From: a virus
Direction: 5' to 3' (one strand)
Length of the DNA: 20,875 bases
IMG/VR virus record: IMGVR_UViG_3300030090_002913
Span: 277-21,151 of that record
The position numbers and the translations under genes were made by a program. The notes beneath the pieces were generated by a model. The model was not told where the DNA came from. It saw only the letters and a program-made list of their open reading frames with translations, and searched no databases. Within the stretch, counting starts at the first letter, position 1, and each line of letters starts with the position of its first letter. Shown piece after piece: positions 2,323-20,222 of this stretch.

Positions 2323-3360
2323 ATGGTTGAATTCTTAAATCGATATGTTTCTATACAAAAAGAAGCCAGTTACGGTACTGAACCTACTGCGGGTACAGGT
2401 AACGGAGAAGTATTCGGAGAAGTAGACGATGAATCTATCCAACATAACTTTGAACTTATGACTCGCGAAGACATGAGCCGACCTATCAGTGCAAAGTCCG
2501 TAACCGGAACAGAACATTCAGCAGGAGACATCAATCTTGCTATGCAAGTCGATGATTTCGTAGGCAACTTACTTTACTCTTTCTTACCACAAGACACAAA
2601 AACAGATTCGGGTTCGATTCGGATTCATACACTAACAGAGCCTTCTCTTACAAGCGCATCTGCTGGTGTTTATCCTTCTTGGACTGTCCGTATTGGGCGC
2701 GAAGAGAAAGAACACACCTTTACTGGTATGATGACCAACACATTGAACATTTCTGCTTCTGTTGGAGAATACGCTACAATGAGTGTTGGATTTGTTGGAA
2801 AAGCAGAATCGGCAACCTCCGCTCTCGCTACCCCTACATTTGCCGGTGTCGCTCTCGATGCACTATACTTTGCTAATGGAGAAGTTCATTTCGATGATGG
2901 TTCTAGCAGCGCACCAGCCGCAGTAGCATCTGTTAAATCGTTTTCTTTTGATATTAACCTAAACCGTGATACAGATAACGCATACGGTATTGGTTCAAGC
3001 ACTTATGGTCGCGCACCTCCGGCACAACGCCGTGAAATCACGGGAACTATTGAGTTCAATAAGGTAATTTACACAAGTTCTCTCGACGAGCCTACTTACG
3101 ACGGTTTGATTGCGGCTGATGGTCTTGAATACAACGATGGAACAGACCCATCAATGAGCCTAAAATTATTAGATGAAGCAGGTGCAGATTTTATTGACAT
3201 TCAGTTCTTTAAGGTAAGATTTGAAGCACCCGAAGCATCAGTAAGTGGTCGTGACACGAATACAATGACTGTGAACTTTGTAGCCCTATACGATGACAAC
3301 CTCGGTGCGATGAAAGTAATCGCACAGGGAACTTCACTATCAAACACACAGTATGATTGA
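2323..3360 (+). CDS. Major tail tube protein
   Basis: A 345-residue protein that likely forms the stacked rings of the tail tube. The N-terminus has the typical opening of siphovirus tail tube proteins (YVSIQKEASYGTEPTAGTG, then a negatively charged stretch and RPISAKSVTGTEHSAGDINL). Two beta-rich halves follow: about 60-170, and 175-330 with FANGEVHFDDGSS, KSFSFDINLNRD, QRREITGTIEFN and MSLKLLDEAGADFIDIQFF. The repeated half pattern agrees with the tandem tube-fold layout in long tail tube proteins. It lies between the tail terminator and the tail chaperones, the canonical place. GAGGTGT stands 5 bases before the ATG. The next gene begins 9 bases after the TGA, with a GGTGAT site in between. 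Identification rests on fold-like pattern and synteny. Confidence 0.75.
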   Translation: MVEFLNRYVSIQKEASYGTEPTAGTGNGEVFGEVDDESIQHNFELMTREDMSRPISAKSVTGTEHSAGDINLAMQVDDFVGNLLYSFLPQDTKTDSGSIRIHTLTEPSLTSASAGVYPSWTVRIGREEKEHTFTGMMTNTLNISASVGEYATMSVGFVGKAESATSALATPTFAGVALDALYFANGEVHFDDGSSSAPAAVASVKSFSFDINLNRDTDNAYGIGSSTYGRAPPAQRREITGTIEFNKVIYTSSLDEPTYDGLIAADGLEYNDGTDPSMSLKLLDEAGADFIDIQFFKVRFEAPEASVSGRDTNTMTVNFVALYDDNLGAMKVIAQGTSLSNTQYD

Positions 3361-3369
3361 GGTGATTAA

Positions 3370-3546
3370 ATGAGTTTCATAGAACTAGCAGAATCTCTTG
3401 GGCATGAAGTCGATGAGGCTTCCGCAGAAGTTCTAGCAAGACTTGAGAACAAAAGCGTTGCACTAAAATACATTCGCAGACTTCCTAAGAAGAAGGCTAC
3501 ACCTAAGAAGGCTAAGAAGGCTTCAAAGAAGGAGAGTGAAGAATAA
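3370..3546 (+). CDS. Small protein with a lysine-rich C-terminal tail
   Basis: A 58-residue protein starting 3 bases after a strong GAGGTGAT site. The first 37 residues form a short acidic/helical part (SFIELAESLGHEVDEASAEVL, ALKYIRRL). Residues 38-58 are a basic tail in which KKA is repeated (PKKKATPKKAKKASKKES). Its stop overlaps the next ATG (TAATG, 3544-3548). I do not recognise it. The LGxxxxxxSAEVLARL region resembles the N-terminus of translation initiation factor IF2-type or SAP-like mini-domains, which can bind nucleic acid or protein, but the match is too short to trust. Its place between tail tube and chaperone genes suggests a tail assembly or virion role. A similar Lys-rich tail is coded 300 bases downstream. 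Confidence 0.65.
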   Translation: MSFIELAESLGHEVDEASAEVLARLENKSVALKYIRRLPKKKATPKKAKKASKKESEE

Positions 3547-3758
3547 TGGCAGTCGGTGACGGCGGCATTAAGATTGTCGATAAGACAAAGATTACTGTTG
3601 CAGAACTAAAGACCACAATGGCTGGTCTTGCATCAGAATTACAAACATTCCTTCGTGGTAGCACATTTGCTAACAACGATATTATCTATCAAATCATGTA
3701 CGAGAGAAACAAGAACAGTAACGACGTTACTGTGTATGTGGTGTTTGAAGACCAGTAA
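3546..3758 (+). CDS. Unidentified 70-residue tail-operon protein
   Basis: A 70-residue protein coupled by TAATG overlap to the preceding gene. It has no Cys, no signal peptide and no membrane segment. It has a short beta start (GGIKIVDKTKITV), a central helix (AELKTTMAGLASELQTFLRG) and a C-terminal pair of strands (DIIYQIMYERN, DVTVYVVFED). The compact alpha/beta profile fits a small assembly factor or minor tail component, but I know no family for it. The GGTGAT site for the next small gene begins just past its stop. Confidence 0.6.
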   Translation: MAVGDGGIKIVDKTKITVAELKTTMAGLASELQTFLRGSTFANNDIIYQIMYERNKNSNDVTVYVVFEDQ

Positions 3759-3771
3759 TAGGTGATTAAGA

Positions 3772-3876
3772 ATGTCGAGAAGATATACAGAACCAGTAAG
3801 TGAAGAGAAGCCAAAGAAGAAGGCTAAGAAAAGTGGAAAAGTGAAGAAAGATGCCGGTGCTAAAAAAGGAAATTGA
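3772..3876 (+). CDS. 34-residue lysine-rich protein overlapping the tail chaperone start
   Basis: An ATG at 3772 has GGTGAT five bases upstream, the same site used for clear genes here. It opens a 34-codon frame ending with TGA at 3874-3876. The peptide is strongly basic (SEEKPKKKAKKSGKVKK) and resembles the basic tail of the 58-residue protein at 3370. It overlaps the chaperone start at 3851 by 26 bases in another frame. The chaperone has only a weak site of its own, so translating this ORF may load ribosomes onto it. It is either a real mini-protein or a leader for coupling. Confidence 0.5.
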   Translation: MSRRYTEPVSEEKPKKKAKKSGKVKKDAGAKKGN

Positions 3877-4210
3877 ACTAGAAGACGGACGCAAGATTTG
3901 GGTGCGGCAAGCATCCGGTATGCAGAAATTAAAAATCGAAACTATACAGGCGAAAGTATTTCGCAAATTTAGGCACTTCGGAACTAACCCCGCAGAATGG
4001 ACAGAAGACCAAAACATAGAGTTTTCTGACGCTCTTGACGAGGCTGGTGGCGGTATGGAAGACCAAATCCAGACTTGGATTCCGGGCTGTATATTAGAAG
4101 AAAACTTTGACATAGATACTCTTACTACAACAGAACTTATGACATTACTTTCTTTTGTGCGCGGTGATGACCCGGAGGGTGCTATCCCTTTGGTCAATTC
4201 CTCGGAGTAG
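3851..4210 (+). CDS. Tail assembly chaperone, short form (G-like)
   Basis: A 119-residue protein of the tail assembly chaperone type. Such proteins coat the tape measure protein during tail growth and are absent from finished virions. It opens with a small beta hairpin (KKEIELEDGRKIWVRQASG), as many tail chaperones do. It continues with helices and ends in TTTELMTLLSFVRGDDPEGAIPLVNSSE. It sits between tail tube and tape measure genes, the family's fixed position. A slippery heptamer C CCT TTG at 4186-4192 lies five codons before its stop codon and would feed ribosomes into the -1 frame to make a longer form, as in lambda G and G-T. The start overlaps a Lys-rich small ORF and has only weak GTGAAG-like pairing upstream. 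Confidence 0.75.
   Translation: MPVLKKEIELEDGRKIWVRQASGMQKLKIETIQAKVFRKFRHFGTNPAEWTEDQNIEFSDALDEAGGGMEDQIQTWIPGCILEENFDIDTLTTTELMTLLSFVRGDDPEGAIPLVNSSE
4174..4192 (+). promoter_or_regulatory. Programmed -1 ribosomal frameshift site with SD-like stimulator
   Basis: C CCT TTG at 4186-4192 is a perfect X XXY YYZ heptamer in the zero frame (codons CCT at 4187-4189 and TTG at 4190-4192). Slipping back one base re-pairs them as CCC and TTT. A GGAGG at 4174-4178 lies about 11 bases before the A-site codon, comparable with the internal Shine-Dalgarno that stimulates -1 slipping in bacterial dnaX. The -1 frame is closed upstream by a TGA at 4168-4170 and open from 4171 to 4506. A small hairpin, AGGGT/ACCCT, is at 4235-4249, rather far to act. 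Confidence 0.72.
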
Positions 4211-4506
4211 CGACCCCATTGTGTATGGCGTTTAAGGGTGTTTTACCCTCAGACCTTTGGGACCGATATGACTCCGAGGGAGGGCATAAAAAACTTGAAA
4301 TTGATATGCTAGTAGCATCAGAAATCAATGACCGTATTAGCGAGGCCAGTAAGGATGCTAAAAAGAATGGTAAATCTATGGTTGATAGGCGTAACAAACG
4401 ACGAGAGGAACGCCAACTCTTAAACAACAACAAAGACCTGTTTACCGCATTGAGAGATGCGAATGTCCCGATTGTGGGCAGTAATGAAAGTGGGGATAAG
4501 GAATGA
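4192..4506 (+). CDS. Tail assembly chaperone extension (T-like), made by -1 frameshift
   Basis: This frame is entered by -1 slipping at 4186-4192 and adds 104 residues to the short chaperone, giving a fusion of about 218 residues. The added part begins GQFLGVATPLCMAFKGVLPSDLWD and ends in a charged helical region (KNGKSMVDRRNKRREERQLLNNN). That fits T domains, which recruit the tape measure protein. Independent starts are poor: a TTG at 4219 follows a GGAG at 4204-4207, and the ATG at 4225 lies 17 bases from it. Starting there would cut off the conserved-looking LGVATPLCMAF stretch. Its TGA overlaps the tape measure ATG (ATGA, 4503-4506). Independent initiation at 4219 or 4225 remains possible. 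Confidence 0.7.
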   Translation, partial: GQFLGVATPLCMAFKGVLPSDLWDRYDSEGGHKKLEIDMLVASEINDRISEASKDAKKNGKSMVDRRNKRREERQLLNNNKDLFTALRDANVPIVGSNESGDKE

Positions 4507-7226
4507 TTGAACTTTTAGGTATCATTCCATCTTGGTTTATAGCAGTCGTATTCGCGGCCACGCTAGTTGTAAATCGTGCTGGTGCATCTAAGATTTTCTT
4601 CGATGTGGTAGGTACTTTCCAAGCCAACAGATTAGTTATGGAAGGAGGTGCTGCCTTTGCCACATTCCAGTCACTTGCTATGGACGCCTTTTCTGGTATA
4701 GAAGAAGTAGCGATGATGGTCAATGAACAGATACAAGAAATAGTAGATAGTACAGTGCCTCTATCGAGAGAAATCGCTGCTGCTAGAATAGAATTTGATA
4801 AATTTATTAGTGATGCTGAACAGGCTAGGTTGGGCGATGAAATCAAAGATATTGGTGTACAGTTTGGTTTTACTGGCGACCAAGCACTCCGAGCCGGTGC
4901 TAAGATGGCGCAGTTGTCTGGTATGCTCGGAGAAGAAGCCGTACCTGCCGCTACGGAAATGAGTCTAGCGTTTGGTATGATTGGTGAAATGGAAGCAGAA
5001 CAAGCCATGCAGAGGCTAATCAACTTACATCAGCAGACTGGTTTTATGATGCGTGGAACCACACAAGCACAATTTGATGCTATGAGTGCAGATGAGCAAC
5101 GCAACCAAATTCGTGTAGCATCTATCGCTACACTCAACGAACTAAACGCAGTCGAAGACCATTCAGCAGCCAACATGGAAAGAATCACCTTCGTCATGAA
5201 TCAGTTCGCTGCACAAGCCCATCTGACCGGAGAATCAATAGCACATATGGCTGCTATGTCTGCGGTATTGATTGAGGCCGGTGAAGAACAGGGTAAGGCT
5301 GGTCGTGCGCTTCGTATGATTTACGCTCGTCTTGGTGCTGATACTAACGGTGCTGCTTCTGAACTAGAAGCATTGGGTGTAGCAGTAAAGAAAGCAGATG
5401 GAACCCTAAGACCACTTAATGAAATTTTGATTGATTTAGATGAAAAGACTGTTAATTTATCAGCAGCAGAAAGACAAAGAATAGCGCAGACTGTCGCTGG
5501 TAACAACCATTATGTACGTATGCTCAAGTTGATGGAAGGCACAGATAGGATGCAAAGTCTTGTTGGCGAAGCGATGGGAAATACTGCGCCTATTGTGGAT
5601 ATATTGAATGATAGATTTAGTGATATGTCTGTACAATTGACACAAGCAGAAACTAAATTAAATAACGTGCGTGGGGAGATTGGGGATGCCTTTATGCCAG
5701 CGATGGTAAATGCTACTAATGCTCAAGTCGCCTTTAATGAAGCATACTTAGATTTTATACAAATGCCTGTTTTTGGAGATGTACTACAAGGCATAGTAGA
5801 ATTTCAACAGATTGCACAAGGTACTATCGCTCCTCTAATGACCATGAACATGAACGCAAAGCAGTTATCGGTGGGTCTTATGACTTCTGTTGTTGTTATG
5901 CGTTCATTGAGTGGTGCTACTACTGCTGGTTTTAACAAAGAGGAGCAATTAAATAATCTAAGAAGAGAGGGCCAAATCTTGATGCGAAACCAAGTTGGTA
6001 TAAAACAAAAGGAGAACAATCTGACCTCACAAACTTCTATGGAAGTCGCAGAACAAATGAGATTAGAAAGAGAAAGATTTATCTTAGAAAGGTTCTCCGG
6101 TGTAGAGGGTCAAAAGCGTTTGAATTTGGCTAAACAAGAGGTTGCTGAACTACAAAAACAACTTATAAATGGTAGAATGATATTGGCACATGACGATGAA
6201 AAGATAATAAAGGTAAGACAAAGAACTAGGGGTCATAAAAACCTTAATCTTCTGTCAAAAGAAGAAAGAACAGACCAAAGATTGATAAACCAAGAATTAG
6301 AGGCACAGATACGGGAGTTATTAGAAAAAATAAATCTACAAAAAGTAGCAAACCAGTTGAGGGATGAGGAGCATCGTACTGGACAAAAGATTTTGATGAA
6401 CAGTAAAATGCAAAATGATGAAATTCAAAAATTCAATTTTAATCACCTGATGAAATTATCTAGTGCTTTTATGCAAGTACAGATGGGTGCTATGTTGGCG
6501 ACAGCGGCGGTAGGACCGTTCCTCAGTGTGTTAGGCGCGGGAGAAGATTCCGCTCGTAAGGCTAGAGTTCAAATGATTATGATGAGTATTACTATGGGTC
6601 TGATGATTGCTGAAATGGGTATATTCACAAGTGCTACTGTGGCTGACTCAAACGCTAAAGTAGTGAATACTGTTGTTACTCATCAACAAAGAAACGCTTT
6701 ACATGGTGTGGCTCATGCTTATCATGTAGCCGCAGCAGCGGCTAGAAGTTTTGGACTTGCTATTGGCGCAGGTTTGCTTTTGATAGGCTTGTCTATTGTT
6801 ATTGAAAGAGCAGCCTCATTTTTCGGTTTGTTTGGAGATGAAGTAGAGACTGCAACAGAGGCTATGGAAAGAATGAGTGCAGAGACCCAAGCAGCATCAG
6901 ACCAAGCATTTGAACTTATGTTAAGTCAGCAACAAGAAATAGAAGCGGTGATGGGTGTAGGACAGGCTTACAGTGATGCCGCTGATGAAATACATAAGTT
7001 TGGCAATTCCAGAGAAGAGTTGTTCTTTGGATTCAAGGCTGGTAATGTCACTGGTGATTTGGTAAAGCAGGTTCAACAGCAGGGTGTCGAGAACTTCGTG
7101 GCGAACACAGAAATAATTATGACCAACAACTTTAATGGTATGACTACCGATGAAGTAGCAGATACAATACTTGAAAAGATAGAAGAGAGAGCAGCGATGG
7201 AAAACATCGGAGTGACTAGGATGTAG
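4503..7226 (+). CDS. Tail tape measure protein
   Basis: A 907-residue protein, largely helical and rich in Ala, Met and Gln, next to the chaperones as expected. Residues about 250-295 carry the core typical of TP901-type tape measures (EAGEEQGKAGRALRMIYARL). Hydrophobic segments lie at about 5-23, 655-678, 691-713 and 750-778; such segments may later help the genome cross the host membrane. Charged, coiled-coil-like stretches occupy about 490-640. In this family length sets tail length; at roughly 1.5 angstrom per residue the tail would be near 130-140 nm, an estimate only. The start is fixed by the ATGA overlap with the chaperone extension. I see no lysozyme or peptidase domain, in line with a host that lacks murein. 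Confidence 0.85.
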   Translation: MIELLGIIPSWFIAVVFAATLVVNRAGASKIFFDVVGTFQANRLVMEGGAAFATFQSLAMDAFSGIEEVAMMVNEQIQEIVDSTVPLSREIAAARIEFDKFISDAEQARLGDEIKDIGVQFGFTGDQALRAGAKMAQLSGMLGEEAVPAATEMSLAFGMIGEMEAEQAMQRLINLHQQTGFMMRGTTQAQFDAMSADEQRNQIRVASIATLNELNAVEDHSAANMERITFVMNQFAAQAHLTGESIAHMAAMSAVLIEAGEEQGKAGRALRMIYARLGADTNGAASELEALGVAVKKADGTLRPLNEILIDLDEKTVNLSAAERQRIAQTVAGNNHYVRMLKLMEGTDRMQSLVGEAMGNTAPIVDILNDRFSDMSVQLTQAETKLNNVRGEIGDAFMPAMVNATNAQVAFNEAYLDFIQMPVFGDVLQGIVEFQQIAQGTIAPLMTMNMNAKQLSVGLMTSVVVMRSLSGATTAGFNKEEQLNNLRREGQILMRNQVGIKQKENNLTSQTSMEVAEQMRLERERFILERFSGVEGQKRLNLAKQEVAELQKQLINGRMILAHDDEKIIKVRQRTRGHKNLNLLSKEERTDQRLINQELEAQIRELLEKINLQKVANQLRDEEHRTGQKILMNSKMQNDEIQKFNFNHLMKLSSAFMQVQMGAMLATAAVGPFLSVLGAGEDSARKARVQMIMMSITMGLMIAEMGIFTSATVADSNAKVVNTVVTHQQRNALHGVAHAYHVAAAAARSFGLAIGAGLLLIGLSIVIERAASFFGLFGDEVETATEAMERMSAETQAASDQAFELMLSQQQEIEAVMGVGQAYSDAADEIHKFGNSREELFFGFKAGNVTGDLVKQVQQQGVENFVANTEIIMTNNFNGMTTDEVADTILEKIEERAAMENIGVTRM

Positions 7227-7232
7227 TGAAAT

Positions 7233-10200
7233 ATGGTAAGAGCAACAACATTAAATTATCAGTTTCTTTTGGCTGGTTATTACGATGACTTTAACGGCGC
7301 AAGAGTCATACCAAACGATGACAATAGACCAAGCCTAACAGATACTTACGACCATAGCAAAACACACTATGGTAATTCTCTAAACGGCGAGGCAACAACA
7401 AATACTCGTTATCGCTGGTCTTATGCTGATAGAGCGCAACTAGGCTCTAATCTAGTACCTTCTGCTTCTGAAAAATTCTTAAAGAATGTTGGACCGGCTG
7501 AATGGCTTACTTTTGACGTTATTAGACAAAAAGCAAATAAATGGGAGGGTCGCTCTCAACTACAATATCCAGATTCAAACACCAACGCTAACAAATATGA
7601 GTTTGGACAGGCTGGCACAGACGGTTTTATTTCTTTTTGTAACGGACATGATACGGCTGGCACTTACACTGTCCCAACAGGAGATAACGACGCTTCACAA
7701 GGTAGAGCGACACGCTCTCCTTATACGATAGTAAATTATGATGCTGGTAGCACAACAGCACAAGCAACTTCTGGTAGTACCGCTGCGGCATACGGTAGTA
7801 ACGGTGGTAATTTTATACAAACTACTCATTTGACTGGTTGTTGGATGGGAGAAAGAAACTATGATTTTTCACACTTTTCTACTGGAGGTGCTACTGAAAC
7901 CCCCGAACTGCTTTACACACCACATAGGTCGCCGGGCGGAAAACCGTTTCTTTGTATTGAGGCTAGACATTTAAGTGATACGGGTTATATCGTATCTTCT
8001 GTACCTAGACCCGCTATCGCTTATGACGCTCTTTTGAATAGCAGACAAGACAACGATACCTTTGGTATTAGATTCGCAATACAATCTCTCAAAGGGACAT
8101 CCACATCAGCAGATGGTAATGCGCCTAAAATGGTAATACACATAGGTTTCCCTTCGGGTAAAAGTGTTGATGGTGAAAAGGGTTTTGATACAAACGCTAA
8201 CACCGCTGCTATTGAATGGAACATCGATTTAGGTGCTGGAACAGTCGCAAACAATGGTCTTGGAGGAACCTATGATTATACAAACACAATGACATCTTGG
8301 GACGGTAGTGCTTACGATGAATCTTCATTATGGATAGATTTAGAGTTTGTGATAGATTACACCAATAATCGTTTTACTGTTTATAGGGATGGTACTGCGA
8401 TTAAAAACACTAGCGGAACAGATGGGCCTTTTACTATGAATAATAATTCAGAAACATCTGGTACGTTTTTGCCTAGTGAAATGAGAGGTTATCAAATAGA
8501 AACCATGCCCCAATCCGGTGATACAAATAGTATATTTACCCTCATGTTAGATAGAGTAGGGCTGTATCAATCTCTAAGTGAGAGAGCAGACGGAACACTA
8601 ATGCCTCCTATCGATAGTATGCAAATAAATTCTCCAATAAACGGTGTATCTTCTATGATGATAAGAATTGCTGACGACCCCGGAACGAATACCGCAACTG
8701 GCGCAGTTGGTCTTAGGGACCAAGATTACACGCACTTCCTTAACAATATTTTTAGAGGAACAGTAAATGATTGGAGCCTGTTACTATTTTATCAGAACCT
8801 AAACAGACCTCTTTGGTGGGGATTATTAGAAGGCATGAATATCAAACAAGGGCCAAAAACAAGAATGTTGACATTACAAGCGCGTGACCCACTAGGTTTG
8901 TTAGAAAGACAAGTTCCTCTTTGGGAATTGGGACAAGGAGCAGAAAATGATAATGAGCAGGGAGTAGCGTATTGGACACAAGAATCACAAACATTTAACA
9001 CGTCCTTTTATTTGGGTGCTAGTCCTTTGAAAACCTTAAGACCCACAGTTGGATTACATAAGGATGATTCTTATGCTGTGCGGACTGACCAAAGAACACA
9101 AGTGTTATCTGGAATACCTATACAGATGTACAACAATGAAGATGCTATAAATGGTCCGAATAGTATAGAGGATGATTACTCTGGTGTTGAAACTATGGGT
9201 TTTTCACAAGTTACAAGTTCTGGAGATACGAGAGTTTTTCTTAGAGGTAATCCGGGTTATACAACATCTAGTTCTATAACTATTTCTGGTTCTACTAATC
9301 ACAACTGCACCAATAAAAATCCTCAAGCGGTAGGTACTTGGACGCATGACGGACAGACATTTCAGTTTTTGGATTTTGATGCTAGTGATTTACCATATGT
9401 TTCCGACACTAACACAAAATACGTTTATGCTGGCAAGTATCTCTGGAATGGTGATTCGGTTGCTGATACAGCAAACGCTAGTATTTCAAACTCTTACTGT
9501 TTCATATTTTTCGGCGACCCAAACCTAAGTATAGGAGATTTTTTTACGATACCAGAAAATTCTGCTTTGAATCATGCAGATATAGACAACAAGGTTCACA
9601 AAGTAATGGCTATTGGTAAATACAATAATTATTACCAAAGAAAAATACAACAATTCTTTTACACATACGCAACTAGACCTAACTTTACACCTCCAACTAT
9701 CACAGTACCCGGCTTTAAATTAGATTTAGGTAGTGATTCGTACGTGAATTTAGACTCTAACAACATACCGACAGATGGTTGTGATTTGTATGTAGTAATG
9801 ACTGATTGTCCATACACATCAAATGAATATGGAACTTTTAACAATGCGGTAGCAAGCACCACTATATCTAGTAGTCTAGCGGCAGGTTCATCCACTATCG
9901 CGCTAACAAGTTCAAGTGGCTTCAATTCTTCTGGTTCTGATGCGAAACCAGCGACAATAAATTTTGCGCCTATCACTTACAGTTTTTCTGGTTTTGCTTC
10001 TAAAATAGATTTTGTAACTTATACTGGTATTTCTACTAATGATTTAACTGGAGTTCCGACATCGGGAGAAAACGACGTAGACCATAATCATTTTAGAGGT
10101 ACTATAAGTGGTGTTGCTAGAAGTCAAGTAGTTACGCAGCCGGGATGGTTGTATGGTTCACATAGAGGTATAGTTTCTACGGACAGAGGGTTCGTTACAC

Positions 10201-13200
10201 CACTACCTACATCAGTAACAGATATATCTACTCGCGCATCCCACGCATTATGGATGAGAGATTTACCTAAGTCTTTGTGGTTCCAATATCATTTCGGTAA
10301 AATGGTAGGAACCGATGAATTAGTTTTAGGTGCTACTTACAAGGCCGGAACCACTGGTGCGTCGGTCGCGGTTGGTGCTAATGTAGTAACGATTTCAAGC
10401 ACACTATACAATGCTATACCTAGTTCTGGTGTAGCACAATTAGGCTCTCCGCTTAGTGGAACGAGTTATTTGAATTCAGTAAAAGACCAAGTAGATAGAA
10501 TGGATTTAGATACATTTATCTATCGAGGAAAGGCAACAAGTGGAGGTGCGTATTATCTTATAGGTTGTTCTTTTATTAGTAAAGCACATGACACCGCCTC
10601 TTTTATAGGAGTAGCGAACATGAGCGATGATTATAAACACTGTTGGGCGTTATGGGCAGATATGCGAAATGATGGAACCGCTGACGCAGATGGCGCAAAA
10701 AGAAAATCTGATTTTGGTATCATAGAACCCACCATAGAAAATTATGAAGTAGATTTATTTTATGCCGACCAACTCGATGAAAACGGTAATCCAGATGTTT
10801 TTACAGATTTGAAATTGGGTCAAGATGTAGATGTTTGGGAGATAAACGCGCAGATAGACCCCTCTACTAGAGGCGCATGGTCTAAACCTGCTGACTACTC
10901 AACAGGAGCCGCAGCAACTTTAGCAGATGCTTCTGGTGCTTTGCGTCTTACCGTTAGTTCTGGTCACGGAGTTGTTGCCAACGACTACATTCATATTTTC
11001 AATAGTGATGTGCATGATGGTGTTTATGAAGTAGCATCAGTTACTTCTACTACAATAACATTAGGTGCTAATACTTTCATAAGCGCAGATAATGGACATG
11101 GTGCGCCGGGAGTATTCTTTTGTAAGGTAACAGGTAGTGAAACAGAAACAAACACAGAATTTCATGATTGGGAAGATAAGGCTGGTTCGTTTTTAATTGT
11201 AGATTCTTCTAAGTTCTTTAATCTTAACACTACTGTCAATAACGGTAGAATGTATAAAAGTGTAGGTGGTAGAACTAATTTAGGGGAGTTCGTATCTACT
11301 AGAGAGGGTTTTCCGGCTTTGATAGATAATTATTGGAAAGAGGCTATGGCTACTTTCCAAACCGTAGACCCTCCTTACGGGACACACCCCAACCAATCTA
11401 GGTTTATTGCTGACGTGTCTGTCGCTGATAACGCAATACTCGCTGGTGACAGACACATTACACTACAAAACGGCTCCTTGTTCCCATCAAACGGAGTAGG
11501 TAGAGTCATAGGAACGAAAGAAGATAGTATTACAACCAATTACATTTTATGGAAGCAAAGAGTTAAGGATGCTTTTACTGGCACTGTCACAAGCAACAGT
11601 TTGAGCGGTAGTAATATTTATCGATTAACTGACTCTTCTGCCAACTTCGCCCCACTTTTAGATATGATTGGTAATCAACAATATCCTATGATACATAATC
11701 TTACGACAGGAGAAACCAGTATAGTTATTACTTATTACAGTAGTACAGAAATAGGGGTTTGTAAATCAAACTATACTAGCGCAAGTGCGCCAAATCAAGA
11801 CTTGAATGATTATCCAAATATCTCCGGTTGGACATCAATAACAAACAGTAATAGTTACGTTATACCAGAACAATTAGTTAGTGTGTTCGGTACATCTTTA
11901 AGCAATTCTACCAATGTAACAAACTCTTCTTATTCTGAAATAGAGAAAGAAATACAAAAAGAATTTATAACTGCTAGTATAACTGCCACTACTAACGCTA
12001 TATCTGGAGTAACGTCTTATGGTACTACTATACCTAATATTAGATTTAGTATGATACAAGGTACAAATAATTTTGAAAGTCTAGGCGTAACAAATAGTTT
12101 AGGCTCTCCATATTCTGTACGTTTGATGATGAGAATACGTGGTTTTGTGGAAAGCCCTAACAACGGCACATATTACGAAAGCGATAAAATGAGAATGTTA
12201 TGGAATGCTGCTTTGATGAAAACTTGGTTGCCTAGAACTAGGTTATCGTGTATTCATGATATTAACAATGTGCCTAATACAAGTATCATGACTATCGATG
12301 GTACTACGAGCGCAGATTCACAAGATGATTTTGGTTCAATTTATGATGGTCGCTCTAAAACACTATTGGGTATCGTAAAGGGCGCACAGGCCGCCAGTGG
12401 TTTAGGAAGGACTAGCGGAGTTACAACTAATTTTGGTTTTCTTTGCGGTAGAGATGGTAGAATAGAATTTAGGCCCCGATACAATTCTGGTTTTGCTTTC
12501 GATAGAAGCAACCTAATGATTAGCGATATGAAAAGTGATATGGGAGGACAAATTACTCATGTACGAGTATATTACAAAAACGGAAGGTCTTTTGCTGACT
12601 TCCCTACGCCTTCACTTTCAGATACAACTCGTTGGAAAATTATAGAGCATCCTACTATCGTCAATCACAGAGAAGCAGAAGCGATAGCAAAGGCAGAATT
12701 TAGAAAATCCAAAAACACAAGACTCTCTATAACTGCTGAAACTATAAGGTCAAGCACACAAACTGATAAAATGATTAGTGGGGGTAGATTCGGTTACATA
12801 GCAGATACTCAAAGAACATTAGACCATAAAGTAGGCGGAGGTATATACGACCCATTCCATATTTCTTTAGGCTTTTCACCCTTTCCCGGAATGGTAAATG
12901 GTATGGATGGAAACCTAAAAAATGTTGTAACCACTGGTGATTTATCGAATCGTTACGGTCAGGCCGCTCCTTACACGGCCATAGGAACCTCCGGTACGCC
13001 TAGTAGAACTGCTTACGACGAACACTACTATTCTTATGGTGCTAACAGTACAGCGTATGCTTTACAAGTAGTTCATGTGCCTCAAGATATGCCTTACAAG
13101 AGTGATACTACAAACAATGAACTTAGGGTTTTCGTTGGACTAAAGCCGGGTCAAAGTGGAACGGACATAGACAACGCTGAATTTGTATTATTATTAGTAG

Positions 13201-14666
13201 ATTACGAATTTTCAAACAGTGCTACCTCTAACGGCTACACTTCTTCTACTGTTGCATCTTTGACTGCTACAAGGAGAGGAGAGTCGTTTTTGTTTGTTAA
13301 AAATAGTGGCTTTTATCAGTTGGACGTACCTTCTTCTTATTCTTCAACACTGAATTCTGCTGGCGCAAAAATAGTGGTGTCTTTCAATGCCGAGTATTGT
13401 CGTGCGCTTTTGAGGCATAGATGTGGCGACCCAAGTGCTAGTAGTGATATATTGGAAAACGCAAACGGTCTTACTGGTGTCTCAACAGGTTATATTACTG
13501 ATGGTAACGATAACAGTATTTTTCCACTAGGAGGTAGAAAATATAGTGAATTCGGTGATTTTGCTTACGGACGTAGCGAATGGTATGCCCCAAGGCTTCA
13601 TGTAGTTTCTGATATTAATTATGTACCGGGAACCTTCGCTACTTACACAGACAAGGCACTAGAACTAAATGATGAAACATTAGTTATACAAAATGTAAAT
13701 TGGTCTGTAAAAGGTAGCAACACAGAAAAAGTTATGTTGAGATTGGAAAGAGATTTGAATTTAGGTCCGACAGGATTTTTGCCATATATTTCTACTATCG
13801 GTATCAACCCTAGAACTGGTAACGGAGGGAATGCTGGTGGCCCTCAACCAACACCATATCCCGACACCAATGGACCGGGTGATGGTGCTGGTGGTTACGG
13901 TGGTTCATACCCCGGTTTAGACCCACTACCCGGCAACAACCCAAGTCCCGGCCTACCAACAGGAGGAGTAACACCTCCTTCTAAATCACCCGGAGGAAAT
14001 CATTCTCCATCAAGCGGAGTGAACCAACTAACCAACGCTGCTTACGGTAACATGAAAGGTAGGATGGGTTTAGATAATGATGTTTTTAGTGGACAGGCTT
14101 CGTTTTCTATATTAGGGCAGAAAAAACCTTCTCCTTTGCCATCGATGATGACACCGGCCAATTCTACTGGATTAGATAACATACAACCTTCTTTTGGCGC
14201 GGCTACAAAAACAGATGGCGATGTTACTTTACCGGGTATAGGTAATTCAGACAATACTGGCGACCATTCAAGCGGTCTTGTGGCTAGTGCTACCGTTCCT
14301 ATCGATGTAGTTTCTTCTAAGATAAATGTAAGTTCCGTGATAAGTTGTGCGCCTAATTCTATCAATAGTCAAAATTCAGTGTTGAACATCAACATAGAGT
14401 GTTTAGAAACAGGAGAGAGTATCAGCAACGACATAGTAATTCCAACAGGAACATCTAAAAAGACGTTTGAGTTAATACCTAATTCATTGTTAAATGGAGC
14501 CTCCACTACCGGCAATAATATTTCTGTAAAAATAACCAGAAGACCAAACACAACAGAAGATACTGCCAATTTTAGTTCTGTAAAAATACATTCCATAGAT
14601 GTGTTGTTTGACCAATCAGCATTCAACACTCAAAGTATAGGTAGAGAGTTTAGTTCGTTTTCGTGA
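7233..14666 (+). CDS. Giant tail-tip protein: baseplate-hub-like domain with adhesin modules
   Basis: A 2477-residue protein filling over a third of the window; by position (after the tape measure) and layout it is the tail-tip hub and probable host adhesin. Residues about 230-445 look like a LamG/concanavalin A-type sandwich (SLWIDLEFVIDYTNNRFTVY, DGTAIKN, LMLDRVGLYQS). Residues about 490-575 resemble the first half of a gp27/Tal-type hub (FRGTVNDWSLLLFY, GPKTRMLTLQARDPLGLLER). Matching second-half features appear only near 1735-1840 (FLCGRDGRIEFRPRYNSG, HREAEAIAKAEFRKSK) and 2114-2186. Between them lie about 1000 residues of Ser/Thr/Gly-rich beta modules. Residues about 2190-2266 are a Gly/Pro-rich linker (GGPQPTPYPD, NNPSPGLPTGG); a separate beta domain ends the protein. 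The start follows the tape measure stop by 6 bases with a weak site. Its last 17 coding bases overlap the opposing nuclease gene. Confidence 0.75.
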   Translation: MVRATTLNYQFLLAGYYDDFNGARVIPNDDNRPSLTDTYDHSKTHYGNSLNGEATTNTRYRWSYADRAQLGSNLVPSASEKFLKNVGPAEWLTFDVIRQKANKWEGRSQLQYPDSNTNANKYEFGQAGTDGFISFCNGHDTAGTYTVPTGDNDASQGRATRSPYTIVNYDAGSTTAQATSGSTAAAYGSNGGNFIQTTHLTGCWMGERNYDFSHFSTGGATETPELLYTPHRSPGGKPFLCIEARHLSDTGYIVSSVPRPAIAYDALLNSRQDNDTFGIRFAIQSLKGTSTSADGNAPKMVIHIGFPSGKSVDGEKGFDTNANTAAIEWNIDLGAGTVANNGLGGTYDYTNTMTSWDGSAYDESSLWIDLEFVIDYTNNRFTVYRDGTAIKNTSGTDGPFTMNNNSETSGTFLPSEMRGYQIETMPQSGDTNSIFTLMLDRVGLYQSLSERADGTLMPPIDSMQINSPINGVSSMMIRIADDPGTNTATGAVGLRDQDYTHFLNNIFRGTVNDWSLLLFYQNLNRPLWWGLLEGMNIKQGPKTRMLTLQARDPLGLLERQVPLWELGQGAENDNEQGVAYWTQESQTFNTSFYLGASPLKTLRPTVGLHKDDSYAVRTDQRTQVLSGIPIQMYNNEDAINGPNSIEDDYSGVETMGFSQVTSSGDTRVFLRGNPGYTTSSSITISGSTNHNCTNKNPQAVGTWTHDGQTFQFLDFDASDLPYVSDTNTKYVYAGKYLWNGDSVADTANASISNSYCFIFFGDPNLSIGDFFTIPENSALNHADIDNKVHKVMAIGKYNNYYQRKIQQFFYTYATRPNFTPPTITVPGFKLDLGSDSYVNLDSNNIPTDGCDLYVVMTDCPYTSNEYGTFNNAVASTTISSSLAAGSSTIALTSSSGFNSSGSDAKPATINFAPITYSFSGFASKIDFVTYTGISTNDLTGVPTSGENDVDHNHFRGTISGVARSQVVTQPGWLYGSHRGIVSTDRGFVTPLPTSVTDISTRASHALWMRDLPKSLWFQYHFGKMVGTDELVLGATYKAGTTGASVAVGANVVTISSTLYNAIPSSGVAQLGSPLSGTSYLNSVKDQVDRMDLDTFIYRGKATSGGAYYLIGCSFISKAHDTASFIGVANMSDDYKHCWALWADMRNDGTADADGAKRKSDFGIIEPTIENYEVDLFYADQLDENGNPDVFTDLKLGQDVDVWEINAQIDPSTRGAWSKPADYSTGAAATLADASGALRLTVSSGHGVVANDYIHIFNSDVHDGVYEVASVTSTTITLGANTFISADNGHGAPGVFFCKVTGSETETNTEFHDWEDKAGSFLIVDSSKFFNLNTTVNNGRMYKSVGGRTNLGEFVSTREGFPALIDNYWKEAMATFQTVDPPYGTHPNQSRFIADVSVADNAILAGDRHITLQNGSLFPSNGVGRVIGTKEDSITTNYILWKQRVKDAFTGTVTSNSLSGSNIYRLTDSSANFAPLLDMIGNQQYPMIHNLTTGETSIVITYYSSTEIGVCKSNYTSASAPNQDLNDYPNISGWTSITNSNSYVIPEQLVSVFGTSLSNSTNVTNSSYSEIEKEIQKEFITASITATTNAISGVTSYGTTIPNIRFSMIQGTNNFESLGVTNSLGSPYSVRLMMRIRGFVESPNNGTYYESDKMRMLWNAALMKTWLPRTRLSCIHDINNVPNTSIMTIDGTTSADSQDDFGSIYDGRSKTLLGIVKGAQAASGLGRTSGVTTNFGFLCGRDGRIEFRPRYNSGFAFDRSNLMISDMKSDMGGQITHVRVYYKNGRSFADFPTPSLSDTTRWKIIEHPTIVNHREAEAIAKAEFRKSKNTRLSITAETIRSSTQTDKMISGGRFGYIADTQRTLDHKVGGGIYDPFHISLGFSPFPGMVNGMDGNLKNVVTTGDLSNRYGQAAPYTAIGTSGTPSRTAYDEHYYSYGANSTAYALQVVHVPQDMPYKSDTTNNELRVFVGLKPGQSGTDIDNAEFVLLLVDYEFSNSATSNGYTSSTVASLTATRRGESFLFVKNSGFYQLDVPSSYSSTLNSAGAKIVVSFNAEYCRALLRHRCGDPSASSDILENANGLTGVSTGYITDGNDNSIFPLGGRKYSEFGDFAYGRSEWYAPRLHVVSDINYVPGTFATYTDKALELNDETLVIQNVNWSVKGSNTEKVMLRLERDLNLGPTGFLPYISTIGINPRTGNGGNAGGPQPTPYPDTNGPGDGAGGYGGSYPGLDPLPGNNPSPGLPTGGVTPPSKSPGGNHSPSSGVNQLTNAAYGNMKGRMGLDNDVFSGQASFSILGQKKPSPLPSMMTPANSTGLDNIQPSFGAATKTDGDVTLPGIGNSDNTGDHSSGLVASATVPIDVVSSKINVSSVISCAPNSINSQNSVLNINIECLETGESISNDIVIPTGTSKKTFELIPNSLLNGASTTGNNISVKITRRPNTTEDTANFSSVKIHSIDVLFDQSAFNTQSIGREFSSFS
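9855..10125 (+). repeat. Coded module resembling the insert in the head-tail adaptor
   Basis: Residues about 875-965 of the large tail protein read STTISSSLAAGSSTIALTSS, SGFNSSG, then TYTGISTNDLTGVPTSG and a His-rich turn. The adaptor insert coded at 279-485 reads STTLNGAISAGATTITLTSG, TGFSSAG, then WSGKSTNDLTGVTG. The order and spacing agree and STNDLTGV is identical. Looser relatives of the AGxxxITLxxxxxFxSxG pattern occur near 10340-10470 and 11400-11500. This is a protein-level repeat; the DNA has diverged. Confidence 0.55.
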
Positions 14667-15372
14667 TTGGGTCACGTAGAGACAATATCCTACGCGCTTT
14701 TTCCCTGCCAATACCCGGAATCTTCATCAGTTGTTTCTGTGAAGTTTTGCTGTTTAGTAATTTAGGAATCGTAGTGAATTCATCCATCAATTGTTCTGCT
14801 AGATGTGGTGTTATACCTTGGATAGATGATAACGCCTTGATAGGAGCCTCTAGGCTTGCCGTCTGAGCCACCTTTACGGTTTTGGGTACGTTACCTAGCC
14901 TGTCGGTAATTAAGTGGTTTGTGTGCGTTGTCATGATAAAATCTACAAATTCTTCCATAGTTAAAAACTGCATGAATTTTATGTTTGGAAACCTAGAGTA
15001 AAAAGATACCTTGAAAGATTTTATAACAGACCTCATCTTAGACATTTCTTTTGCTACCGATTGAGCAGTAGGTCTTCCGCCGGGAACCCAAGGTTTTAAC
15101 TTAGTTCCGTAGACAACTAACATAGGATTCTCAAATGCTTCTTCAAGGTCACGTAGTTGCGCTACGATAGTTCTAGTTCTACCTATGCCCAAGATAGACC
15201 TATACAAATCGTTTATTTCTTTGGCTTCTATACCTATATCACCTATGATATAATCAGCCGAGTCTAAACGCGCTACTTTCGCTATGCCGTTTGGTGATTG
15301 ATTAGCGTCGCCACCGCGCATAAGCATTTTGTGTATGACCTTCTCGTTCTCTCGGTCATCTATTAGAATCAT
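14650..15372 (-). CDS. XPF/ERCC4-type structure-specific nuclease with tandem HhH
   Basis: A 240-residue nuclease. Residues 1-60 carry the ERCC4 core: LIDDREN at 3-9, ADYIIGDIGIEAKEINDLYRSI at 39-60. Asp5/Asp6, Arg7-Glu8, Asp45, Glu49, Lys51 and Asp55 match the metal and catalytic pattern, but the usual ERK is EAK. Residues about 178-232 hold two helix-hairpin-helix motifs (LSSIQGITPHLAEQL; LMKIPGIGREKARRIL), which bind branched duplex DNA. There is no helicase domain, so it resembles the nuclease half of archaeal Hef/XPF and should cut flaps, forks or recombination intermediates formed during viral replication. It is the last gene of the - strand block, 26 bases after the primase stop. Its 3' end overlaps the opposing tail gene. 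Confidence 0.85.
   Translation of the reverse strand: MILIDDRENEKVIHKMLMRGGDANQSPNGIAKVARLDSADYIIGDIGIEAKEINDLYRSILGIGRTRTIVAQLRDLEEAFENPMLVVYGTKLKPWVPGGRPTAQSVAKEMSKMRSVIKSFKVSFYSRFPNIKFMQFLTMEEFVDFIMTTHTNHLITDRLGNVPKTVKVAQTASLEAPIKALSSIQGITPHLAEQLMDEFTTIPKLLNSKTSQKQLMKIPGIGREKARRILSLRDPITKTN
14698..14702 (+). terminator. Possible U-tract terminator for the late operon
   Basis: Five T residues on the + strand (after TACGCGC) lie about 30 bases past the stop of the large tail gene. Archaeal transcription can end at such T-tracts without a hairpin. The site is inside the opposing nuclease gene, so base composition there is constrained by coding. The case is weak. Confidence 0.25.
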
Positions 15373-15398: not shown

Positions 15399-16415
15399 TT
15401 AATTAACTCTTGTTAGATTATGCGCCCAACAGTCGTGACCGTCACAAAGACCGCGAGCAGCGTACCAGCCAGCAGAAGGCGACCTATCGTAAGTCAACAA
15501 AGTTCTGATGTGTCCTCTACTTACACTAGGATTAAAGTCTCTCCAATTCAAGGTCTCAATGTAGGTCAGTATCTCGTCCTCCATAGACTTCATTTTGTCA
15601 GCCGGGACACTAGATGCTGGTGCGAACCAACGTAGGTTTTCAGCCATGTGTAAAACTAAGGCTACACGAATCTCATGACTAGGGTTGCTAACCTGTATTG
15701 CTCTATCTAGGCAGGGAGGTATAGGCACAGTGCTATGTGTGCCTACCTCTCCCGAAAAGGTTCCGCTAGATACCCATTGTTCTGTTTCAGGATTATCGAT
15801 AGCCCACTTTGTAATAGAAAACGTAGGAGACAAATCATCTCCGCGGAACGGGTCTAGGTGAGTGTAATCATCTACTGGTCTTGTGGGTATGGTAAAATCC
15901 ATAGGAGAGTCAGCAAATTCTCGCGCATCTATGTTGACTGCCCATCTACCCCTACTCACGTTAAATGTGTCAGGAATCCTAGTCATCTTCTTGGCAAAAC
16001 CTACGCCATCCAATGTCTTAAGGTCATGCGCTTTACTTCGCTCGTAGCGATTTAGTTTGCGGTCCCATGAGCCACCGATAACAGGCTCCCTAAACAACTG
16101 ATGTACGTGGAATCCACGACCAGTAGCAACCAATCTTACGTCGCCTTCTAAGCGATTTATCAGTGTTGCTACGTCACGCTTGACATCATTTATACCGCCG
16201 CGTTCACCCATATCGAAGTCCCACCACGCTCGGTCAATAACTACACTGTTGTAATCTGGTTTCCAAGGGCGTTGAGGGTCACGTTCTTTGAATGAAAACA
16301 AAGATGTGTAACAATTTGCTTTGCCATTTACGGTATCAACGTAAGAAGAGAATCTATCTATCGAAGGACAAATGCTACGCCGTAGACCAATCTCGCGAGG
16401 GAAGGAAAGTAACAT
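15399..16415 (-). CDS. Archaeo-eukaryotic primase with PriS-like catalytic and PriL-like C-terminal parts
   Basis: A 338-residue primase that should lay down primers for the DNA polymerase B coded upstream. The N-terminal AEP domain shows motif I, DFD at 66-68 (AWWDFDMG), motif II with GRGFHVH at 99-105 (catalytic His103), and a motif III-like RIPDTFNVSRGRW at 146-158. After about residue 230 the sequence changes to a helical region with PPC at 233-235, SHEIRVALVLHMAENL at 246-261 and RTLLTYDRSPSAGWYAARGLCDGHDC at 304-329. PPC plus two later Cys recalls the Fe-S domain of the large subunit PriL, with His327 or His332 as possible extra ligands. Fused PriS/PriL-like primases are known from archaeal mobile elements. 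The preceding gene ends 3 bases before its ATG. Confidence 0.82.
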   Translation of the reverse strand: MLLSFPREIGLRRSICPSIDRFSSYVDTVNGKANCYTSLFSFKERDPQRPWKPDYNSVVIDRAWWDFDMGERGGINDVKRDVATLINRLEGDVRLVATGRGFHVHQLFREPVIGGSWDRKLNRYERSKAHDLKTLDGVGFAKKMTRIPDTFNVSRGRWAVNIDAREFADSPMDFTIPTRPVDDYTHLDPFRGDDLSPTFSITKWAIDNPETEQWVSSGTFSGEVGTHSTVPIPPCLDRAIQVSNPSHEIRVALVLHMAENLRWFAPASSVPADKMKSMEDEILTYIETLNWRDFNPSVSRGHIRTLLTYDRSPSAGWYAARGLCDGHDCWAHNLTRVN

Positions 16416-16418
16416 AAC

Positions 16419-16580
16419 TCAACCAACCACCTGCTCATGTCCACACGCGCAGACTGCTACGACAATAGGAGTTCTTTCGCCACCTTCTTCGCTAGTGACA
16501 CTCCAAAGGGTCATTTCATCTACCCATTCACAATCGCCAGTGCCTTCATCTTTTGCACATACTGTTACTTTTTTACTCAT
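16419..16580 (-). CDS. 53-residue cysteine-containing protein
   Basis: A short frame between nuclease and primase genes. Its ATG overlaps the nuclease stop (ATGA at 16577-16580) and GTGAT precedes it. Cys lie at 8, 17, 45 and 47 with His49 (VCACGHE). This could be a one-metal zinc or small redox site, but the spacing is not that of a standard zinc ribbon. The middle is acidic with Trp19 and Trp26. Tight coupling to a nuclease and a primase suggests a part in replication. I do not recognise the family. The frame is closed exactly by its neighbours on both sides, which supports it being a real gene. Confidence 0.6.
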   Translation of the reverse strand: MSKKVTVCAKDEGTGDCEWVDEMTLWSVTSEEGGERTPIVVAVCACGHEQVVG

Positions 16581-17428
16581 GCTATCACGTCCGGTTCTAA
16601 TCCACTAAGTATGCCATCACATGACATGGAAAAATCACACCATTCGGGGCAAAAATAATCATTCCACTTCATCGGCCATTGATGGGAAACTAGAGATTCT
16701 ATGGTGTCGTTTAAGGATTGTGGGAATGTATTAAGTGACCTAGTTGGTACTCGTTCCATAACTGCAACGCCACAAGTTTCTCCCAACCAAACTTGTTTAC
16801 CGCGCTTGCCTATCTCATCTAACATACGTTCATCAGTACAGTCTGGAGCGATGTACAGGAAGTGTGTGATGTTCTCATAACCAGCCTGTGTAAGCATCCT
16901 GTGATAGAACACAAGTTCTTTACGAGTACGACTTAACTTAGAAGGATTCATATTACCTGTCTTGAGTTCTACGATAATGATACCGCCATCTGGATGACGC
17001 AAAACACCGTCAATCATACCACTCCAAATGATAGGGATAGTGCCTTTGTTTTCGGTTACAAAATCCTCATAGATGTATCTCTTTTCTTCTACCTCGACTA
17101 CATCGAGACCACCAAGAGATGCCGCTATACCGTGAATTAATTTAGCCATTTCATCAACCCCGGTATCTCCAGCAACACCTTCCTTTTCAGCAACGGCTGG
17201 TATAACATCGGGTCCGTCTACTAGACTTGCTTCCATCACAGAATGTATAGCAGTACCGCGAATCGCCGCTTCGCCAACAGGAGGGCTAGGCACACCACTC
17301 ATGTATCTCCACCAATACTGGCGAGGACACTTTTGATAGTTCATGAAAGAAGATTTACTTACTCTCAAGATAGGTAGTTCTCCCACCTTGTAAGAAGATT
17401 GTTCGACTTGTTGTGGCGTAGCGTCCAT
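16577..17428 (-). CDS. RecB/Cas4-like PD-(D/E)XK exonuclease with Fe-S cysteines
   Basis: A 283-residue nuclease of the Cas4/AddB/RecB-C type. Cys34 sits in SSFMNYQKCPRQYWWRY, the usual first cluster ligand. Then come GTAIHSVME (His62), the active site MIDGVLRHPDGGIIIVELKTG (Asp140, Glu154, Lys156), and a helix with Tyr175 (KELVFYHRML) matching the QxxxY motif. The C-terminal CPEWCDFSMSC supplies Cys260, 264 and 270, so a 4Fe-4S cluster is likely. Such enzymes resect DNA ends for recombination or packaging-linked repair; many archaeal viruses have one. No Cas1 or Cas2 gene is near, so a CRISPR role is not indicated. The start follows GGAGGT and overlaps the previous stop (TAATG). Confidence 0.85.
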   Translation of the reverse strand: MDATPQQVEQSSYKVGELPILRVSKSSFMNYQKCPRQYWWRYMSGVPSPPVGEAAIRGTAIHSVMEASLVDGPDVIPAVAEKEGVAGDTGVDEMAKLIHGIAASLGGLDVVEVEEKRYIYEDFVTENKGTIPIIWSGMIDGVLRHPDGGIIIVELKTGNMNPSKLSRTRKELVFYHRMLTQAGYENITHFLYIAPDCTDERMLDEIGKRGKQVWLGETCGVAVMERVPTRSLNTFPQSLNDTIESLVSHQWPMKWNDYFCPEWCDFSMSCDGILSGLEPDVIA

Positions 17429-20100: not shown

Positions 20101-20222
20101 CTCATCCACCATTTATCCATTTCTTGTGTAGGCTTATAACTGTTCTTGTAGCACTTGTAACAAAGACGATGTATAGGGTGTAAAACTGCCCACCGCTTAC
20201 ATCTTTTACATACACCAGACAT
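20097..20222 (-). CDS. 41-residue zinc-ribbon protein, first gene of the polymerase operon
   Basis: The ATG at 20222 opens a 41-codon frame ending in TGA at 20097-20099, which overlaps the polymerase ATG. Cys5-x2-Cys8 (CKRC) and Cys21-x2-Cys24 (CYKC) make a minimal zinc ribbon; the protein is basic with Trp at 11, 38 and 39. I take 20222 rather than a farther in-frame ATG at 20345. The longer form would run through the TATA box and the palindrome, and its extra 41 residues are low-complexity Pro-rich. The predicted transcript start lies about 20 bases before this ATG. It probably binds nucleic acid or the polymerase; no function is shown. Confidence 0.68.
   Translation of the reverse strand: MSGVCKRCKRWAVLHPIHRLCYKCYKNSYKPTQEMDKWWMR

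Follow-up and report, generated by a model that had tools for sequence, protein, structure and literature searches.

A 20,875-nucleotide stretch of viral DNA (the window), part of a 21,151-base IMG/VR record (IMGVR_UViG_3300030090_002913), carries two small open reading frames (ORFs), G and T, between genes for virion tail proteins. T lies in the -1 frame relative to G, which raises the question of how it is translated. We consider it very probable (about 0.93) that the locus uses a programmed -1 ribosomal frameshift of the lambda G/GT type, in a magrovirus-like tailed virus with a probable Poseidoniales host. Comparison with related sequences establishes the site and the direction of the shift and shows that, in at least some lineages, T has no other route of expression.

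Gene layout and probable host

On the + strand of the window, the gene order is a tail tube protein gene (2323-3360; Pfam Phage_tube_2, E = 5e-23; phrog_290), a small ORF (3546-3758), G (3851-4210), T (4192-4506), a tape measure protein gene (4503-7226; PHROG tape measure families, E = 6e-18; Pfam PhageMin_Tail, E = 2e-17) and a large ORF (7233-14666). G encodes 119 amino acids by standard decoding, and T is a 104-amino-acid extension, the stop codon of which (TGA, 4504-4506) overlaps the tape measure ATG at 4503. The G/T pair is located between the tail tube and tape measure genes, as G/GT chaperones are. A further small ORF, with a basic product (MSRRYTEPVSEEKPKKKAKK...; 3771-3875), which overlaps the start of G by 25 bases, has counterparts only in the closest relatives (22 checked).

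The identification of G as a tail assembly chaperone draws on the ORF itself, its conservation in 258 related loci, fold matches and gene order. The AF2 model of G (pLDDT 91) consists of a beta-hairpin and four helices, and among PDB structures it matches the HK97 tail assembly chaperone 2ob9 best, though weakly (E = 0.28, TM 0.45-0.49). In BFVD, many matches named tail assembly chaperone were obtained, all of them weak. No match to the G sequence was detected in PHROGs, Pfam or the phage collection; among named phage genomes, neither G nor the tail tube protein has a homologue, and tape measure matches are distant only. The T model is of low confidence, and its fold search returned a single match without a name. 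Gene position and the frameshift layout are stronger arguments for the chaperone identity than the fold match.

The replication module is located on the - strand and consists of an ERCC4-type nuclease with an HhH domain (14650-15372; Pfam ERCC4, E = 5e-7; HHH_5, E = 2e-10), a PD-(D/E)XK nuclease (16577-17428; PDDEXK_1, E = 1e-12) and a family B DNA polymerase (PolB; 17896-20112), all three of which served as markers of host type. The ORF at the expected primase position (15399-16415, - strand) gave no significant Pfam match. In the PDB, PolB is closest to archaeal PolB (best match, the archaeal polymerase 5mdn; E = 2e-27), and the contig of a relative encodes an RFC small subunit closest to archaeal RFC, together with a portal, a terminase and a GroEL-type chaperonin. 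The archaeal-type replisome genes thus form a module that runs opposite to the one for the virion, an arrangement expected of the Magrovirales (PMC10768690, PMC12999244). For the magrovirus family Aoguangviridae, the ICTV profile gives PolB, RFC-S and GroEL, describes two opposed modules and labels a TAC gene (PMC10768690), and ERCC4 and PD-(D/E)XK nucleases are listed for magroviruses (PMC10160649, PMC12999244). The likeness to Magrovirales such as the Aoguangviridae, which extends to PolB, the clamp loader, both nucleases, GroEL and the opposed modules, is one of gene content; a TAC gene is also labelled on the published map of the magrovirus YSH_150918 (PMC10768690, PMC12999244, PMC10160649). 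A search of GTDB genome contigs with G and with PolB for a host identified no relatives. Gene content supports well the archaeal-virus label given in the sequence-only reading and makes a Poseidoniales host likely.

Several other features of related contigs were observed. The ORF L113:1441-3030 encodes a GroEL-type (group I) chaperonin, and 8 of 15 related records contain a Cpn60-family match; GroEL also figures in the gene list of a published magrovirus (PMC10768690). One 73.8-kb contig (IMGVR_UViG_3300030117_003378, containing L117-L120) carries at both ends related, non-identical blocks of PD-(D/E)XK nuclease, primase-like and large tail ORFs, and PolB sequences at the two ends are 49% and 58% identical to the PolB of the window, suggesting that the contig is chimeric or contains a diverged duplication. 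In addition, L119:5024-5986 encodes an ArdC-like anti-restriction protein with a zincin-like metallopeptidase domain.

The slippery heptamer and the expression of T

The heptamer CCCTTTG (4186-4192, + strand) is read as C CCT TTG in the frame of G, and five codons separate it from the short-form stop (TAG, 4208-4210). The -1 frame is closed by a TGA at 4168-4170, is open from 4171 and ends at the TGA at 4504-4506. Translation across the heptamer reproduces the junction EGAIPL-GQFLGVATP that had been predicted from the sequence alone; the predicted GT fusion is about 218 amino acids in length, with the junction-spanning peptide ...GDDPEGAIPLGQFLGVATPLCMAFK. By itself, a single X_XXY_YYZ heptamer in the 12-codon overlap is weak evidence and only mildly surprising at most: in long ORFs of these viruses, such heptamers occur in frame by chance once per 260 codon pairs. 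The corresponding rate for C_CCT_TTN is once per 16,543 codon pairs.

Profile-guided scans of viral contigs (IMG/VR) identified 258 loci that contain both G and T, some of which are overlapping stretches of one contig; counted at ±50 nt of the G stop, they comprise 113 distinct junctions. T is in the -1 frame relative to G in all 258 loci. In-frame CCT_TTN is present at 112 of the 113 junctions and C_CCT_TTN at 104, and such retention is not a product of chance. The types are C_CCT_TTG (72 junctions), C_CCT_TTA (17), C_CCT_TTT (15), other N_CCT_TTT (8) and G_CAT_TTT (1). In a set of 51 representatives, clustered at 85% identity and used for the analyses of codon periodicity and synonymous sites, the freely varying site is the third position of frame 0 before the heptamer and the third position of frame -1 after it, the periodicity changing frame exactly at the heptamer. 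Within the heptamer, synonymous sites are frozen: the third base of the Val, Ile, Leu or Pro codon preceding CCT is C in 48 of 51 representatives (8.1 expected, P = 2e-35), the Pro codon is CCT in all 51 (16.9 expected, P = 3e-25) and the Leu codon is TTR in 39 of 39 (P = 3e-13). These P values treat the representatives as independent, an assumption that holds only approximately for related sequences, and serve as guides. The 0-frame stop drifts from 0 to 9 codons past the heptamer, being the very next codon in one clade; therefore, constraint on the 0-frame protein cannot account for the frozen heptamer.

Conservation of the T-frame protein begins at the codon that directly follows the heptamer. 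This bears on the possibility that T is a gene in its own right, with a start at TTG 4219 or ATG 4225 that ribosomes would use by coupling or by reinitiating once they have terminated at the G stop. In most relatives the T frame does contain an ATG (at +33 or +12) or a TTG (at +27), the G stop and the candidate start are close together, and a GGAGG is present upstream. However, the T-frame amino acids between the heptamer and the candidate starts are conserved, the candidate starts differ among relatives, and the GGAGG lies about 40 nt from them, which is too distant for initiation. Moreover, six representatives of divergent lineages (L070, L075, L013, L086, L021 and L038) contain no T-frame ATG, GTG or TTG before +60 nt, so that in these T must come from frameshifting. 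Independent initiation, which also leaves the frozen heptamer unexplained, was rejected on these grounds and is very unlikely. Relatives that had lost the heptamer and kept a good T start, which the sequence-only reading had named as the contrary finding, were not what we encountered; the heptamer is kept, and several relatives lack a usable start.

Two further explanations of the frame change are less probable still. Transcriptional slippage, in which the polymerase rather than the ribosome would shift the frame, operates at A or T runs in some genes, but the known bacterial cases require runs of about nine (PMC5009743). The longest run in CCCTTTG is three, the TTT variants reach four T, and the frozen sites are those expected from codon-anticodon re-pairing instead, making slippage of this kind highly improbable. 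Metagenomic contigs may carry indels, and the frame change could in principle be an artefact of sequencing or assembly, or a sign of gene decay. Nothing specific in our analysis points to an error at this locus, and the relatives refute this explanation, to which we attach a negligible probability: the 258 loci, drawn from many metagenomes, share the layout, and both frames are under purifying selection. A -1 ribosomal frameshift producing a G/GT pair, as originally proposed from the window, is thus supported by the retention of the heptamer among relatives.

In the scheme that we infer for tRNA re-pairing, the G:GT ratio and the roles of the two chaperones in the presumed host, most ribosomes would end translation of G at its TAG (4208). 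In a minority, peptidyl-tRNA-Pro paired with CCT and tRNA-Leu paired with TTG would move one base back onto CCC_TTT, and these ribosomes would enter T, yielding a GT fusion (...EGAIPL-GQFLGVATP...) that ends at the start of the tape measure gene. By analogy with lambda, G would form a coat on the tape measure protein, and GT, the less abundant product, would recruit the tail tube subunit. In those viruses that carry it, the upstream GGAGG probably boosts the efficiency of the shift.

The nine imperfect heptamers (eight N_CCT_TTT and one G_CAT_TTT) all have TTT in the A site: departures from C_CCT occur at 9 of 24 TTT sites versus 0 of 89 TTG/TTA sites (Fisher P = 2e-7), and the G+T tree requires a minimum of 8 transitions between the perfect form and imperfect ones. 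This association is the pattern expected under tRNA re-pairing. Since tRNA-Phe can re-pair perfectly on U_UUU, sites with TTT may do with a poorer match in the P site, whereas re-pairing of TTG and TTA is imperfect and would explain why CCC is kept with them. Y_CCU_UUU is also the reported frameshift site of flaviviruses of the Japanese encephalitis virus (JEV) group (PMC4342338). The sole relative without a CCT P-site codon (L168, IMGVR_UViG_3300000973_000236) has G_CAT_TTT, with no slippery codon in the P site, and retains both ORFs; the P-site tRNA might slip on U_UUU there, or the sequence may be in error.

Stimulatory elements flanking the heptamer

Most known -1 sites carry a downstream stimulatory structure. 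When 51 representatives were folded and compared with synonymous shuffles, no stem-loop or pseudoknot was found 3' of the heptamer; the mean z of downstream folding was between -0.65 and about 0, like that of control windows inside G. RNAalifold detected no conserved downstream helix in the same representatives.

Upstream, a Shine-Dalgarno (SD)-like GGAGG, a putative optional 5' stimulator, is present at 4174-4178 (+ strand), 7 nt before the heptamer, 8 nt before the P-site codon and 11 nt before the A-site codon, the last of these distances agreeing with the sequence-only reading. Of 72 representatives, 24 contain it, in each case with the same 7-nt spacing to the heptamer; GAT GGC or GAA GGC takes its place in many relatives. 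Alignment of the relatives therefore bore out the heptamer and the two-frame layout, but not a general conservation of GGAGG, which only about one-third possess. Nevertheless, GGAGG exceeds the synonymous expectation about six-fold (20 of 51 versus 3.2-3.3 expected from synonymous resampling). The mean anti-SD energy at the site has a z of about -4.7 to -5.0, whereas among 34 other windows along G the lowest z is -2.95 and most are positive. Glu is encoded by GAG in 64-76% of cases at the two codons of the site; in the rest of G, the best-populated Glu columns use GAG in 17-20%. On the tree, the GGAGG state switches a minimum of 21 times; therefore, its excess does not derive from one founder. 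Windows immediately upstream of GGAGG avoid anti-SD pairing (z +5 to +6.5), and such avoidance just upstream has likewise been described for the bacterial RF2 SD (PMC5009743). Depletion of anti-SD complementarity extends over most of G in the relatives, at codons before -21 (counted from the CCT codon), and is strongest near -207 and directly before the heptamer.

An alternative explanation of the enrichment is that GGAGGG is kept for a small hairpin with CCCTTT rather than for 16S rRNA binding. The two sequences can pair in the window, with two G-U pairs. However, A at position -13 would pair better with U than G does, yet G is enriched there (38 versus 15.2 expected) and A is depleted (16 versus 27.9), which fits anti-SD pairing, and the helix would be inside the ribosome during slipping. 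We therefore disfavour the hairpin and regard it as unlikely; it concerns only the nature of the stimulator. The role of GGAGG as a -1 stimulator, suggested earlier from the window, is supported by its enrichment at a fixed spacing and tempered by its absence from most relatives, and the comparative data point to an optional stimulator at most. We tentatively propose, at slightly less than even odds, that archaeal ribosomes use an internal SD as an optional -1 enhancer, which would have been gained and lost often in this virus family, and that UUU in the A site frees the P-site codon from having to re-pair.

Relation to known frameshift systems

Long-tailed dsDNA phages generally use G/GT frameshifting (PMC5009743, PMC8211752). 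Compared with lambda G/GT and its relatives in dsDNA phages, the present locus uses a pyrimidine heptamer (C_CCT_TTN versus G_GGA_AAG in lambda), has no detectable sequence similarity and belongs to an archaeal-type virus. For archaea, reports of -1 frameshifting in haloarchaeal viruses date back to 2013 (PMC5009743, PMC8211752): G/GT frameshifting is predicted or reported, likewise in the -1 direction, for HVTV-1, HCTV-1, -2 and -5, and Hardycor1, in which a -1 heptamer was noted, and in the +1 direction for HSTV-2 (PMC5009743, PMC8211752, PMC7911831). These haloarchaeal tailed viruses have different hosts, and no G homologue is present in the phage collection. The novelty initially attached to an archaeal G/GT frameshift was thus overstated, since all of these viruses precede it. 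A 2021 review described archaeal -1 frameshifting in one cellular gene and a few haloarchaeal viruses (PMC8211752), and our literature search, of incomplete coverage, found no mention of frameshifting in Poseidoniales viruses or magroviruses.

The SD of Escherichia coli dnaX is located about 10 nt before the heptamer. The dnaX site resembles the present one in having an SD-like sequence upstream of a -1 heptamer; it differs in that the spacing here is 7 nt, about 3 nt closer, only about one-third of the relatives carry the element, there is no conserved 3' stem-loop and the outcome is an extension instead of a truncation. The JEV-group site is the same heptamer as the C/T_CCT_TTT variants found here (PMC4342338), but it operates on eukaryotic ribosomes with a 3' pseudoknot in an unrelated virus, and the resemblance is one of convergence only.

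Because G/GT frameshifting is known in bacterial phages and haloarchaeal viruses, the locus represents a new and well-supported case, not a new mechanism. What appears to be new is the pyrimidine heptamer with its natural variants and the comparative evidence for an optional SD-like stimulator in a probable archaeal virus. The 113 distinct junctions constitute a large natural data set, probably from viruses of abundant uncultured marine archaea, that reveals which heptamer positions are under selection and under what conditions variation is permitted. SD stimulation on archaeal ribosomes thereby becomes directly testable, and T in these genomes should be annotated as part of a GT fusion and not as a separate gene.
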